A stretch of DNA of 64,000 nucleotides, from NCBI GenBank assembly GCA_031292625.1, contig JARLGU010000065.1:1-64000 (forward strand), read 5' to 3'. The stretch comes from Capsulimonadaceae bacterium (lineage in GTDB: Bacteria > Armatimonadota > Armatimonadia > Armatimonadales > Capsulimonadaceae). Shown in pieces: positions 3,097 to 13,469 of the stretch; position 1 is the first letter of the stretch, and each line of letters begins with the position of its first letter. Under the pieces are notes generated by a model. The model searched no databases. It was not told where the DNA came from and worked only from the letters and a program-made list of their open reading frames with translations. A program made the position numbers and the translations under genes.

Positions 3097-3906
3097 CTAG
3101 AAATCGACGGCAGTATCTCCGAAGCAGGCGTTGCCGTTAGCATAATGACGAATGAACACCTTGCCGCGACCGCCTGGGGCAAATCCGCCGGTGCAGGCGC
3201 CCGTCGTCGACGTGTTATCGCCAAGCTGATTGAGATCGCCAAGGCCCGTGGCGCTCGGATCCGGCATCTTGACCCACACCGCGTGCCCATCTGCGCAGGA
3301 TACGTTCATGCCGCCGTTGTGCCGCGTGAGACTCGCTACACGTGTTTGGTTGGTGCTCCAATTGCTTCGCAGCCAATTCCAGTCGTTCGCACATGAACCC
3401 AGGGTGTTCGTATTGCGCGAATTTTCGAAAACAACCGCGTAAAGGGCAGGCGTGTCGATCTGAGAGGAGAGAAGAGGAGCGTTCGCAATGCCATAGCAAT
3501 TGCTAGCGGTGCAAGGCGTGGACGTGTAAACGCGCACGATCTCCGTATTTACTTGATAGTCGATGTTGTAGGGCAAACCGCTGACCATAGCGCCATTGCC
3601 TGACGGACACGTGTAGCTCGGAGTGCTCTTCATGTAAACTTGGAACTGACCAAACCACTCGAATGGCCAGGCTGTGCTCGTGTACAGGTTTGCATTCGTC
3701 GGCGAGAGACCGATCGGAAACGCTTCGTCGTAATCCTGAACATATTGCATGATCGCAAGGCCGATCTGCTTTTGGTTCGCCAGACAAGCGCTCGCGCGCG
3801 CTTTTTCACGAGCACTTGCAAAAACAGGAAATAGAATAGCAGCAAGAATCGCAATAATAGCGATAACAACGAGTAACTCTATAAGAGTAAATCCATATCG
3901 TTTCAT
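3097..3906 (-). CDS. Type II secretion/type IV pseudopilin-like protein (H-X9-DG class)
   Basis: The 269-residue product starts [20 protein letters not shown], a class III prepilin signal with cleavage expected between G5 and F6 and the conserved glutamate at +5, followed by one hydrophobic helix. Near the C-terminus [13 protein letters not shown] fits the H-X9-DG motif common in such proteins of Armatimonadota and Planctomycetes. The start is set by TTGGAGAACACC just before ATG, 20 bases after the GntR gene stop. It probably assembles into, or is displayed by, a secretion pseudopilus at the cell surface. Its place between a sugar-responsive regulator and a secreted hydrolase suggests a role in polysaccharide handling, which is inference. 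Confidence 0.88.
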
Positions 3907-3926
3907 GGTGTTCTCCAAAACTTCCG

Positions 3927-5165
3927 TCAGCGACGATAGGCCGCCGGCATTTGCGTCGAGCTTCGCCGAGAAAGTTGAAAGTGCAAACAAAGCCGGCCGG
4001 CATCCGTGCGCCCTTCCGCCGCCGCAAGCAGCATTCCGCCAACTTCGCGTCCAAGCGCCTCTAGCGGCGGACGCATCGACGTCAGCCCTTCTTGACGCGA
4101 TCGCGGATGGTCGTCAAAGCCGATGATGGCGTACTCTCTTCCGGCAAGCAAACCCTTCTCTTCCGCGGCGCGCATATAGCCGAAGGCAACCCAGTCGTTC
4201 GCCGCGATAACGGCGTCGGGCACGCGACCGCCACCCTCAAAATAGCGCATAGCTTGCTCGTAAGCCGCCTGTTCATGGACGCGCAGATCTCCAACAACAC
4301 TTGTGCGCTCGACATATGTGTCGAGGCTCTTGGCGGCAATCAACGTGCTCAGCGAACACCGTTGCGCCCCCGCCAGCGCGAAAGCTTCTCGAGCTCCATC
4401 GAAGCGCTCCTCCACCCAATCGACTGAATAAGGAGACAGGAACAACGCCTCGCGGCATCCCTGCTCGATCAAGTGGCTTGCCGCTTGAAACCCCGCCGTC
4501 CGGTTGTCGTAATAGACGTGCCGCACGGGAGCCAGGATCGACCTAGACGCTACAAATACAAGGGGAACATCCGGATAGGCCGCCATGGCATCCCATACAG
4601 CCTGGTTTATGTCGAAGGTGTAGAACCCCGATACGGCAACGGCCTGGACACCCTCCTGCCGAAGCTGACCGACGGCCTCGAACAGCGTGCGAACCGGGAT
4701 CCCGGCTCGCATCAAATTGGCATAGCGGATCGACGCATTCTGGGCGTTGAGAACTTGCTCGATGTTCGTAATAATGGTGTCGTTCCAGGTGTTCGCGAAC
4801 CTCGACGCGTTTTCGCGAAGATCGAACTCGCCCACGATCCCGAGCACTAGATTCCGCATGGAACTGCCGTTCGTTCGCGCGACCGGCGCCGCCGGTTCCC
4901 TCGATCTCTCTGCGTCGTCTCCTTGAACAAACGTCCCCCGCCCCGATTCCGCGCGAAGCGTGCCGTCCGCGACAAGATTCGTGATCGCGCGCTGAAGGGT
5001 GTTCAACTCGACGTTGTAGACCTTCGCCAGTTCGCGACGTCCCGGTATCTGCTTGCCGACCGGCCATATGCCGCCGCGGATACGCGCCCGAAGATCGTCC
5101 TCGATGCGCTTGTACGCCGGTGCGGAGTACGCCCTATTCTGTTCCGCCAGCCTTCCGTTTGCCAT
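3927..5165 (-). CDS. GntR-family regulator with LacI-type ligand-binding domain
   Basis: The product has 412 residues. An N-terminal winged helix of GntR type spans about 15-80 ([47 protein letters not shown]). Residues 100-400 are a periplasmic-binding-protein-like effector domain ([24 protein letters not shown]-like segment, [11 protein letters not shown]). This AraR-like architecture senses sugars. The gene starts four bases from a palindromic operator that overlaps its own promoter (5169-5223), so autoregulation is likely. It leads an apparent operon with the pseudopilin and GH71-like genes, its probable targets. The ligand is unknown. Confidence 0.88.
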
Positions 5166-11193: not shown

Positions 11194-11205
11194 GAGAAGG
11201 TGACT

Positions 11206-11418
11206 ATGGATCTAAGACTACCCGTCGGAGCGCTCTTCGCAATATTCGGCGCGCTGTTGACGTTGTTCGGCGCTTTCGGTCCGAAGGACATTTACGAAAA
11301 GTCGCTCGGCATCAACGTCAACCTCTACTGGGGCGCGGTGCTGCTCGTCTTCGGCCTGCTGATGGCCGGCTTCGCTCTCGCGGCAAGCAAGCGGGAAGCG
11401 CAAGCGAAGGCGGAGTAA
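11206..11418 (+). CDS. Small two-helix membrane protein linked to the symporter
   Basis: The 70-residue product has two hydrophobic helices (PVGALFAIFGALLTLFGAF and LYWGAVLLVFGLLMAGFAL) separated by a short polar loop and ends in a charged tail (SKREAQAKAE). AGGAGAAGG starts within the symporter stop codon and lies at good distance from ATG 11206; a GTG at 11200 is too close to it. The 12-base gap implies co-expression. By analogy with other small partners of secondary transporters it may stabilise or regulate the symporter. I do not recognise a named family. Confidence 0.75.
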   Translation: MDLRLPVGALFAIFGALLTLFGAFGPKDIYEKSLGINVNLYWGAVLLVFGLLMAGFALAASKREAQAKAE

Positions 11419-11420
11419 AA

Positions 11421-11468
11421 CCTACCTTCCCCTCCGGGGCCCCTTCCTTCCGCGACGGAAGGAGCCCC
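11421..11468 (+). repeat. Left inverted repeat of the DUF559 cassette
   Basis: It begins CCTACCTTCCC, runs through CCGGGGCCCCTTCC and ends in the hairpin CTTCCG-CGA-CGGAAG followed by GAGCCCC. Read in reverse complement it matches 11984-12032 at all but a few bases, mainly around the central GC-rich segment. It can double as a terminator for the small membrane gene that stops at 11418. Confidence 0.7.
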
Positions 11469-11545
11469 AGAAGGTTAATCGCCCAGCGGCTAGCAGAGAA
11501 TGGGAAGGGAAGTCCGAGTAGTTTTACGACGACGAGCTATGCGAT

Positions 11546-11935
11546 CTACGATTGGCATGCGTTCAGGATCGTTTGGGCGACGAGGTCCAGACGATCCTGA
11601 ATATCATAATTTCTGAACCGAATAACACGCAGCCCCAATGCCTCCATGATCCTATCGCGTTCGGTGTCGTAATCGATATTCGTGTCGTGAATGGGTCCAT
11701 CCACTTCGATGACAAGACGCGCCTCGTGGCAGTAGAAGTCCGCAATAAAGCCCCTGATTACGCACTGACGACGGAAGTGAAATCCACCTAGCCTACGTGC
11801 GCGCAGCACTGACCACAGCAGTCTTTCCGCGATTGTCGGCGCATCCTTCAAAGTTTTGGCGCATAACGCCTTCGCCATCGTCGGCCGCTCGCGGACAGGG
11901 CCATACTCTTCCCAATGGTTGCTCATGCATAGCAA
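11546..11935 (-). CDS. DUF559 / Vsr-like PD-(D/E)xK endonuclease domain protein
   Basis: The 129-residue product is a single DUF559 domain. Residues 34-80 hold the typical block AERLLWSVLRARRLGGFHFRRQ, then FIADFYC and RLVIEVDG, giving candidate metal-binding residues D66, E77 and D79. The C-terminal RDRIMEALGLRVIRFRNYDI is also typical. Proteins of this fold resemble very-short-patch repair endonucleases, but their biological role is mostly unproven. The start may be residue 1 or the MSN methionine three codons later; no strong ribosome site settles it. Inverted repeats flank the gene on both sides. Confidence 0.85.
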   Translation of the reverse strand: MLCMSNHWEEYGPVRERPTMAKALCAKTLKDAPTIAERLLWSVLRARRLGGFHFRRQCVIRGFIADFYCHEARLVIEVDGPIHDTNIDYDTERDRIMEALGLRVIRFRNYDIQDRLDLVAQTILNACQS

Positions 11936-11983
11936 CTCACTCGGATCGCGACAACCCGGAAAGGCTTGCGCTTGTTATTTCCG

Positions 11984-12032
11984 GGTCTCCTTCCGTCGCG
12001 GAAGGAAGGGGCCCGCGGAGCGGGAAGGTAGG
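11984..12032 (-). repeat. Right inverted repeat of the DUF559 cassette
   Basis: This is the inverse of 11421-11468, with the hairpin CCTTCCG-TCG-CGGAAGG (11989-12005), AAGGGGCCC, and GGGAAGGTAGG at the outer end. It lies about 50 bases upstream of the nuclease start and one base from the stop codon of the convergent gene. Confidence 0.7.
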
Positions 12033-12033
12033 T

Positions 12034-12366
12034 CTACCCCAACTCCACCCCCGCAAGCCGCTCGACGGCGGCCTCGAACCGGTCGAAGTCGTGGATCCAC
12101 GACTCGATCACGATGCCGTTTTCGTCGATAATGCAGAACGATGGCGTCGCACGTGCGCCATAACCGTTAGAATAGGACTCGACCGCCTCGCGCGACGGAT
12201 CGTAGAGGATCGGATAACCGATTGCGTTCTCCCGTACAGCGTCCAGGATGGCCTCTCGAACGTCGAATAAATCCCAGGCGACGACCCTGATACGTGCGCG
12301 CATTCCAATCTCGTGCAGGCGCTCGATCCGCGCCGTCACCTTCACCAAGCCGCCACCCACCCCCAC
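12034..12366 (-). pseudogene. C-terminal part of a frameshifted redoxin/TlpA-like domain
   Basis: This 110-codon frame (LVKVTARIERLHEIG, RIRVVAWDLFD, GYPILYDPSREAV, GARATPSFCIIDENG) is the second half of a thioredoxin-fold redoxin domain. Its first half sits at the end of the overlapping frame 12342-13469 (APDFDVALLDGGKLNPAKL). Joining them needs one extra base in a G-rich tract near 12350-12375. No plausible independent start with a ribosome site exists. It is either a true loss of one base or a sequencing error. Even when repaired, the usual CxxC active site is absent. Confidence 0.65.
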
Positions 12367-13469
12367 CCAAGCGCGAGCGCAACCTTCCAGCCGCGAAGCT
12401 TAGCAGGATTTAGTTTGCCTCCGTCGAGAAGCGCCACATCGAAATCCGGAGCAGGCGTCCCGGGCGCGATCAGTCCGGCATCGGGGGCCAGGCTCCAGCG
12501 TGTCCACCCATCCGGCGGCTCCCAGCGGAACGTTCCGTCGGGCATCTCGGCTATCGGAGACACATTCCGCCACTCTTCGGTGGTAGTCCATTCCATCGCC
12601 CCGGCCCACGTTTCAATCGCGCGCCTGGGAAATCGGTCCGAGCGGGCGATCCAGATACGCGTCGACCGGTGCGGCGTCTCGATCGACATCTCGATCTCGA
12701 CAATGTCGCAAATCTGGCCGTCTACGACCTCCGTGCCATATGATCGATAGGCGACAATAAGCCGGTTGCGGGGAGGTTCGCGACGAAAGAATAGGCCTGG
12801 CTCAACAGCCTGAATAAATGGCATCATCCTGAGGACCTGAGCAGTGTCGTTCAAAAACGGATACGTTGAGCCCATATCCACGTCGCGTTGATAATAGGCA
12901 TTCTCGCAGGTCCGCTGGTAGGCGTCTTCTTCCTCGCCTTCGTATTTTGGACGCTTGCCATACCAGTAACCCAGCAACCGACCATCGCTGACGACCGATG
13001 TAGCATACAGCGCGCCTGAGCTGTCGAAGGACTCCTGCCGCAGCTGGTTCGGCTTGCTGAGCCACAGTCGTGTCATGCCTGTCACAGACTCGTCGGCAAG
13101 CCAATACCGATGCTCGCTTCGTATCTCAAAGCTCAAGCTCTGCGCCGCCCGAAACGCGGCGATCATTTCACGATAGACCGCTAGCGCTTCCGGATCGCCG
13201 CCGATAGACGACTGGACGGGAGATTTCGCGATACGAAGAACATGGTTTCGAAGCCTTGGCCAACTCGCGAAGCCATAATCACGCGCGACGACAAGTTGGG
13301 CATCTGAGAGGCGCAACATGCGCGTGGGCGGGAAAGGCGTCAGGCGCAGGGCGGCTTCGACACGGCGAACGGCCTTTGCGTCGTGGATGCGAAAGGATGC
13401 GAGAAGCTCCTTCGCCTCATTCTTGAGGTGCTCGAGGTTGGGCGATGCTGGTAATCCGAGGGCCGACAT
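12342..13469 (-). CDS. Multidomain protein: N-terminal helical motif, LolA-like middle, start of redoxin domain (frameshifted)
   Basis: The 375-residue frame begins after a GGAGG ribosome site. Residues 1-75 include LSDAQLVVARDYGFASWPRL, a motif common in ankyrin-associated and regulatory proteins of soil bacteria. Residues of about 95-310 resemble an outer-membrane lipoprotein carrier-like or DUF2092-like fold (SLSFEIRSEHRYW, TRLWLSKPNQLRQES, DGQICDIVEIEM). The end enters a redoxin domain that continues in another frame at 12034-12366. No signal peptide or transmembrane segment is visible. The function is unknown; the architecture suggests a protein that once ended in a thiol-reductase-like module. 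Confidence 0.65.
   Translation of the reverse strand: MSALGLPASPNLEHLKNEAKELLASFRIHDAKAVRRVEAALRLTPFPPTRMLRLSDAQLVVARDYGFASWPRLRNHVLRIAKSPVQSSIGGDPEALAVYREMIAAFRAAQSLSFEIRSEHRYWLADESVTGMTRLWLSKPNQLRQESFDSSGALYATSVVSDGRLLGYWYGKRPKYEGEEEDAYQRTCENAYYQRDVDMGSTYPFLNDTAQVLRMMPFIQAVEPGLFFRREPPRNRLIVAYRSYGTEVVDGQICDIVEIEMSIETPHRSTRIWIARSDRFPRRAIETWAGAMEWTTTEEWRNVSPIAEMPDGTFRWEPPDGWTRWSLAPDAGLIAPGTPAPDFDVALLDGGKLNPAKLRGWKVALALGWGWVAAW

Follow-up and report, generated by a model that had tools for sequence, protein, structure and literature searches.

We found that the window, by which we mean the whole stretch of 64,000 nucleotides of Capsulimonadaceae DNA that was analyzed, contains a small nuclease gene between two inverted repeats, together making up 612 bp (11421-12032; Table 1). 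The first-pass annotation had described a 129-residue DUF559 gene between near-identical inverted repeats that abut the stop codons of two convergent genes. Our analysis confirmed this, with repeats of about 51-53 nt. The inverted repeat aligns as two blocks, 11420-11431 with 12022-12033 (12 nt, 100%) and 11437-11472 with 11979-12014 (36 nt, 94%). That is, there is one repeat of about 51-53 nt on each side, with the two blocks offset by a 2-nt difference in length. The left arm begins 1-2 nt past the TAA that ends at 11418, and the right arm ends 0-1 nt short of the stop codon of the convergent ORF.

Table 1. Features of the nuclease locus and its immediate neighbors (positions in the window).
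Feature	Position	Strand	Remarks
DUF559 (PF04480) PD-(D/E)XK nuclease gene	11546..11935	-	129 aa, TTG start as listed
Left repeat arm	11421..11471	+	covariance model, 65.3 bits; head outward
Parts of left arm			head CCTACCTTCCC, hairpin 1, CCCC, hairpin 2 (TTCCG-CGA-CGGAA)
Right repeat arm, inverted copy of left	11980..12032	-	covariance model, 72.5 bits; head outward
Left neighbor ORF, downstream of SSF (sodium:solute) symporter gene	11200..11418	+	72 aa; context, outside the element
Right neighbor ORF, redoxin-like, convergent	12034..12366	-	context, outside the element

Each arm in the window is made of two hairpins. From the outside in, there is a head (ACCTACCTTCCC), hairpin 1 (CCCGCTCCGCGGG), the sequence CCCC, and hairpin 2. 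Hairpin 1 is small and variable and hairpin 2 (CTTCCG-CGA-CGGAAG) is strong. A 21-nt core of the repeat was present without mismatch at both arm positions and did not occur in any of 100 shuffles, excluding a chance origin of the match between the arms. The folding z of the arms was about -3. Across 20 copies of the repeat in the genome, 97.8% of stem cells pair, and hairpin 1 had double changes from G-C to A-U. No family in Rfam matched the repeat.

We also noticed that a single DUF2092-redoxin protein seems to be divided between the ORFs 12342-13469 and 12034-12366, with a frameshift close to a C-rich run (about 12350) separating the halves. The split could be an assembly error or indicate a pseudogene.

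The window protein matched PF04480 with 113.4 bits (E 6e-33; the Pfam gathering score is 20.6). Only DUF559 and MTES_1575 nuclease models matched it; there was no match to the HUH Y1 transposase family (PF01797). Residues R55, D66, E77, D79, H83, D90 and R93 were invariant in an alignment of 23 flanked DUF559 members, including that of the window, and this set of conserved residues is what a nuclease core would be expected to have. The best structural match of the AF2 model (pLDDT 87.6) was 3HRL, from a DUF559 protein of Neisseria gonorrhoeae, followed by the catalytic domain of the homing endonuclease I-Bth0305I (PDB 3R3P; Foldseek E 8e-5, TM 0.75 over the target; profile match E 4e-4). PvuRts1I and Vsr were weaker matches. 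VsrA of Caulobacter, also a DUF559 protein, is reported to trigger a DNA damage response in cells lacking a cytosine methyltransferase (PMC12907096), which suggests that DUF559 proteins act on DNA in cells. The gonococcal DUF559 gene that is apparently the source of 3HRL (NGO0050; NZ_CP119142.1, about 49.6 kb) lies between two repeats of about 100 nt that are direct rather than inverted, each containing a hairpin of the CCCTCTCCC type.

Distribution of the repeats

We searched for the repeat in the window's own genome (5.8 Mb in 65 contigs) with a covariance model. There were 48 matches, the two arms and 46 others, and the same model had none or one match in each of 30 relatives. The first-pass annotation had called for such a genome-wide search. 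The repeats were dispersed and genome-specific, but most of the other copies are a sister variant with CTCCCG..CGGGAG, found as singlets and in arrays, and in that genome only the two arms have the exact form of hairpin 2 (TTCCG..CGGAA). Contigs C48, C8, C17 and C31 together hold about half of the copies, and prophage genes (terminase, portal, primase, tail) adjoin the copies on C48 and C17. No inverted repeats were found near the four other DUF559 genes of this genome. Because the exact variant is confined to the cassette and the other four DUF559 genes are unflanked, the window's genome alone does not make a sufficient case.

Two further features of the sister repeat were apparent. It is present by the dozens between prophage-like genes (terminase, portal, primase; G000:C48:85000-108681 and further loci), and on C48 its orientation is the same throughout. 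It is also often located just upstream of a gene, where the end of its hairpin, GGGAGGAG, could act as a ribosome-binding site.

We scanned 101 genomes, the window's own and relatives, and found about 100 places with DUF559. An inverted repeat was scored as present at a local alignment score of at least 20. Flanks were counted from the DUF559 domain, because in sphingomonad loci the right arm falls inside the matched reading frame. Controls were intervals shifted by 1100 nt within the same loci.

Inverted repeats flanked 36 of 62 DUF559 loci from the window's phylum, compared to none of 118 shifted controls (Fisher 2e-21). Among alphaproteobacterial loci, mostly from sphingomonads and gathered for these with a single sphingomonad protein as query, with a Brevundimonas genome and an unplaced MAG also included, the repeats flanked 52 of 63, compared to none of 125 controls (Fisher 7e-36); these genomes are not phylogenetically independent. 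The two groups of controls together had no positives (0/243), and one of 159 neighboring ORFs had inverted-repeat flanks. The counts were nearly unchanged for score thresholds from 15 to 25. The first-pass annotation had asked if repeat pairs flank DUF559 genes more often than chance, and these counts indicate that they do. It had also named two outcomes that would speak against its proposal: repeats with no link to DUF559, and conserved synteny of the nuclease without repeats in all relatives. We saw neither.

DUF559 genes fused to other sequences were flanked in none of eight cases, a contrast to solo genes that is weaker when flanks are counted from the domain, and three DUF559 domains within long open frames (L094, L124, L125) also carry arms. 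Loci of the same design were present in a plasmid collection, from Sinorhizobium, Azospirillum lipoferum, Sphingomonas and Deinococcus. No inverted repeats were found at the E. coli DUF559 loci or at two loci from Azospirillum brasilense. At 52 distinct sites the sequences of the arms differ and the design is nearly always one, in which a C-rich strand carries a head plus one or two hairpins. The heads were CCTAACCCC, CCCACCCC, CCTACC, or GGTGGAGGGG when read from the other side.

In S. meliloti Ak57, pSymB (3810-4540) has a DUF559 gene with REPIN-like doublets (CCCCTCACCCTAACCCTCTCCCCGC...) on both sides, the right one interrupted beside an IS element. A query containing these doublets had matches at 440 places in 139 Rhizobiaceae-type replicons. 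Elsewhere, one genome (G061) has three related DUF559 genes (L083, L084 and L132; relative BLOSUM scores 0.76-0.88), possibly a recent spread within that genome.

Matched nucleases and repeats, and the sites they occupy

Repeat class followed the DUF559 tree. Using one representative per genomic site (18 alphaproteobacterial sites, five repeat classes), there were 5 changes of class on the tree, where the minimum is 4 and 500 shuffles gave a mean of 9.4 and a lowest value of 6, a result limited by our having written the rules for repeat class after the arms had been seen. Paralogous nucleases of one genome usually bear different repeat classes. Arm polarity (head outward or hairpin outward) tracked the tree loosely, with 11 changes compared to 15.9 after shuffling. 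Similarity of proteins and of arms, compared by distance, was weakly correlated (rho 0.26); this was above all 500 permutations and is confounded by phylum.

The number of repeats was also linked to the nuclease. The TCCTCCCCGNNNCGGGGAGGGGGACC subtype had 11-58 copies in the 11 genomes whose nuclease bears that arm and 0-8 copies in the seven genomes without it (exact p 3e-5; treating the seven most closely related genomes as one gives 1.3e-3).

We examined inverted pairs of class A repeats within 2 kb of each other in the six alphaproteobacterial genomes with complete class A lists. The pairs had only two sizes: 19 were 96-138 nt and six were 416-460 nt. All six larger pairs enclose DUF559. 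The 19 small pairs are REPIN-like doublets without a gene.

G002 is a complete genome from the window's family. There, the arm from one DUF559 cassette is found 69 times (34 without mismatch), often as inverted doublets of ~151 bp (GCAAACCCACCC...GGGTGGGTTTGC). The same arm had 14 copies in a genus-mate and none in eight other relatives. No target-site duplication was evident at the G002 doublets inspected. The flanks at the doublet junctions were complementary to each other (at least 4 nt) in 9 of 20 copies, compared to 8% of crossed pairs. We considered that the doublets might be internal deletions of the cassette and rejected this; the interiors of the G002 doublets align with it no better than shuffles do, and only the arms are common.

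Many of the G002 doublets (L312-L330) are centered in another inverted repeat that is specific to the copy, for example CCCTCCCGTG|CACGGGAGGG in L327. These doublets may have inserted into the tips of hairpins.

DUF559 cassettes were located inside conserved operons, and one such location provided a comparison of occupied and unoccupied sites. At the pntAa-pntAb junction of sphingomonads, 11 loci were filled and four were empty. In the sister species Sphingomonas BT553 and Leaf339, there are 460 bp and 61 bp, respectively, between pntAa and pntAb, with flanks that are 93% and 96% identical. The cassette at this site begins directly after the pntAa stop codon. Orthologous sites without the cassette, for which the first-pass annotation had proposed to look, do exist in sister species. 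The 61-bp spacer of the empty site is unrelated to the ends of the cassette, so the older state and a clean target cannot be read there. BT553 has 20 copies of the cognate repeat subtype and its sister Leaf339 has one.

In the pnt operon (L192, L219-L225), the right arm has GGGGAGGA at its end, a few nucleotides before the start codon of pntAb. Given this placement, the inserted repeat may supply the Shine-Dalgarno sequence of pntAb.

Interpretation and alternatives

The architecture and its recurrence were computed directly, as were the cognate match of repeat class to nuclease clade, the presence of two size classes, the link to copy number, and the filled and empty sites. We read the 612 bp, with a probability of about 0.7, as a single copy of a minimal nuclease-REP element. 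In such an element, a solo DUF559 nuclease is bounded by hairpin repeats that it would recognize and whose spread it would drive. The gene-less repeats, either inverted doublets of 100-150 bp or single units, are best read as non-autonomous, REPIN-like relatives of this element.

The nuclease would recognize its cognate repeat when folded, as a hairpin or cruciform, and would nick or cut it. Host repair or recombination would then copy the repeat, or the whole cassette, to a new or an allelic site. Spread of this kind would be homing-like or of a copy type, and would depend on repair. No covalent intermediate arises when a PD-(D/E)XK enzyme hydrolyzes DNA, and such an enzyme lacks strand-transfer chemistry. 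For this reason, we prefer a repair-dependent, homing-like route over true transposition. The first-pass annotation had suggested that the nuclease and its hairpins are a self-contained system comparable to that of the REP-associated tyrosine transposases (RAYTs). That proposal is supported by the excess of flanked DUF559 genes, the dispersed and genome-specific repeats, the distribution of repeat class on the nuclease tree, and the filled and empty junctions; the cutting and movement we infer. There is perhaps an even chance that, in at least the Alphaproteobacteria and the window's phylum, a solo PD-(D/E)XK nuclease itself mobilizes cognate hairpins and REPIN-like doublets, and that a share of the bacterial hairpin repeats that have no known transposase are its products.

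The main rival reading treats DUF559 as a free-standing parasite of the homing type, which cuts pre-existing repeats and becomes inserted between them, while some other process made the repeats and spread them. The match in fold and sequence to the homing endonuclease I-Bth0305I would be expected of such a parasite, which would also produce the pairing of nuclease clade with repeat class. We consider it unlikely. Where the cognate nuclease is absent, a genome has few repeats of its subtype or none, as in Leaf339 compared to BT553, and a second source of repeats, independent of the nuclease, is not needed. The scarcity of repeats in the sister that lacks the nuclease speaks against the parasite, although the direction of cause is not settled.

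It is also possible, with much lower probability, that a RAYT moves these repeats as ordinary REPs and that DUF559 is a frequent passenger. RAYTs are present in most of these genomes, and they served as a positive control for our method: 26 of 38 had inverted-repeat flanks, compared to 0 of 146 controls. However, the repeats that flank RAYTs are different in kind from those that flank DUF559 in the same genomes, and on this ground we rejected RAYT as the mover of the latter. The window's genome has one RAYT, with flanks unrelated to the DUF559-flanking repeats. In addition, repeat class tracks the DUF559 tree, and the six cassette-sized class A pairs contain no cargo other than DUF559. The RAYT of the window's genome (L140, G000:C45:3590-4550) lies between two near-identical copies (about 180 nt) of the 3' end of an upstream gene, which gives the impression of an insertion that duplicated the end of that gene.

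The least probable alternative is an ordinary Vsr-like repair or defense nuclease beside hairpins that are merely terminators or insulators: DUF559 is Vsr-like by sequence and fold, and both a solitary cytosine methyltransferase and DNA damage have been linked to Caulobacter VsrA (PMC12907096). Against this, the window hairpins have no T-runs. Such hairpins also occur in 10-100 dispersed copies apart from DUF559 and form REPIN-like doublets, their class co-varies with the nuclease, and PADLOC matches were weak, covering part of the profile (E 1e-3 and 2e-5).

Relation to known systems

We found no paper linking DUF559 to repeats in the open-access literature. An arrangement of an enzyme with its cognate REP is already known in kind; the enzyme family and the class of repeat are new to it. 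Bacteria have REP-like hairpin repeats in abundance and, to our knowledge, the HUH-type RAYT is their only known enzymatic partner. For at least one superfamily of repeats, no dedicated transposase has been reported (PMC3733652). If our reading is correct, some of these orphan repeats would be accounted for by a second enzyme family, unrelated to RAYT and paired with repeats of its own. It would also give a role to DUF559, a common domain of unknown function, and would open the question of how a hydrolytic nuclease spreads DNA without strand-transfer chemistry. The solved structure from the family (3HRL) puts a biochemical test within reach.

The closest parallel is RAYT/REPtron (PMC3116915, PMC3733652, PMC8266576). 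Both have a single small enzyme gene between inverted hairpin repeats, the repeats are genome-specific, and enzyme and repeat co-vary. RAYT systems also have gene-less inverted doublets and singlets that are dispersed; their counterparts were seen here in G002 and the alphaproteobacterial genomes, and in the window's genome only the sister variant is dispersed, as singlets and arrays. The relation of REPINs to RAYT genes has been described in Pseudomonas (PMC3116915), and that of doublet to cassette here is the same with a different enzyme. In contrast to RAYT, an HUH tyrosine transposase, the DUF559 enzyme is a PD-(D/E)XK nuclease. Its repeats are two-hairpin units, rich in C and with a pyrimidine head, and differ in kind from those beside the RAYTs of the same genomes.

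The nuclease itself resembles other enzymes. It shares its fold and a profile match with EDxHD/Vsr-like homing endonucleases (I-Bth0305I, 3R3P). In contrast to these, no intron or intein was seen at the DUF559 loci; the gene lies between inverted hairpins that have many gene-less relatives. Vsr endonuclease and Caulobacter VsrA have the domain family and fold in common with the window nuclease, and VsrA has been studied as a mismatch-repair-type enzyme (PMC12907096).

Among known repeats, the CGTC-tagged REPs of Alphaproteobacteria, reported without a dedicated transposase (PMC3733652), are likewise REP-like palindromes from that group. The published CGTC units have stems of 8-9 bp that start with A-T pairs, and a CGTC tag (PMC3733652). 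The repeats described here differ from that published description in having C-rich stems and no CGTC tag.
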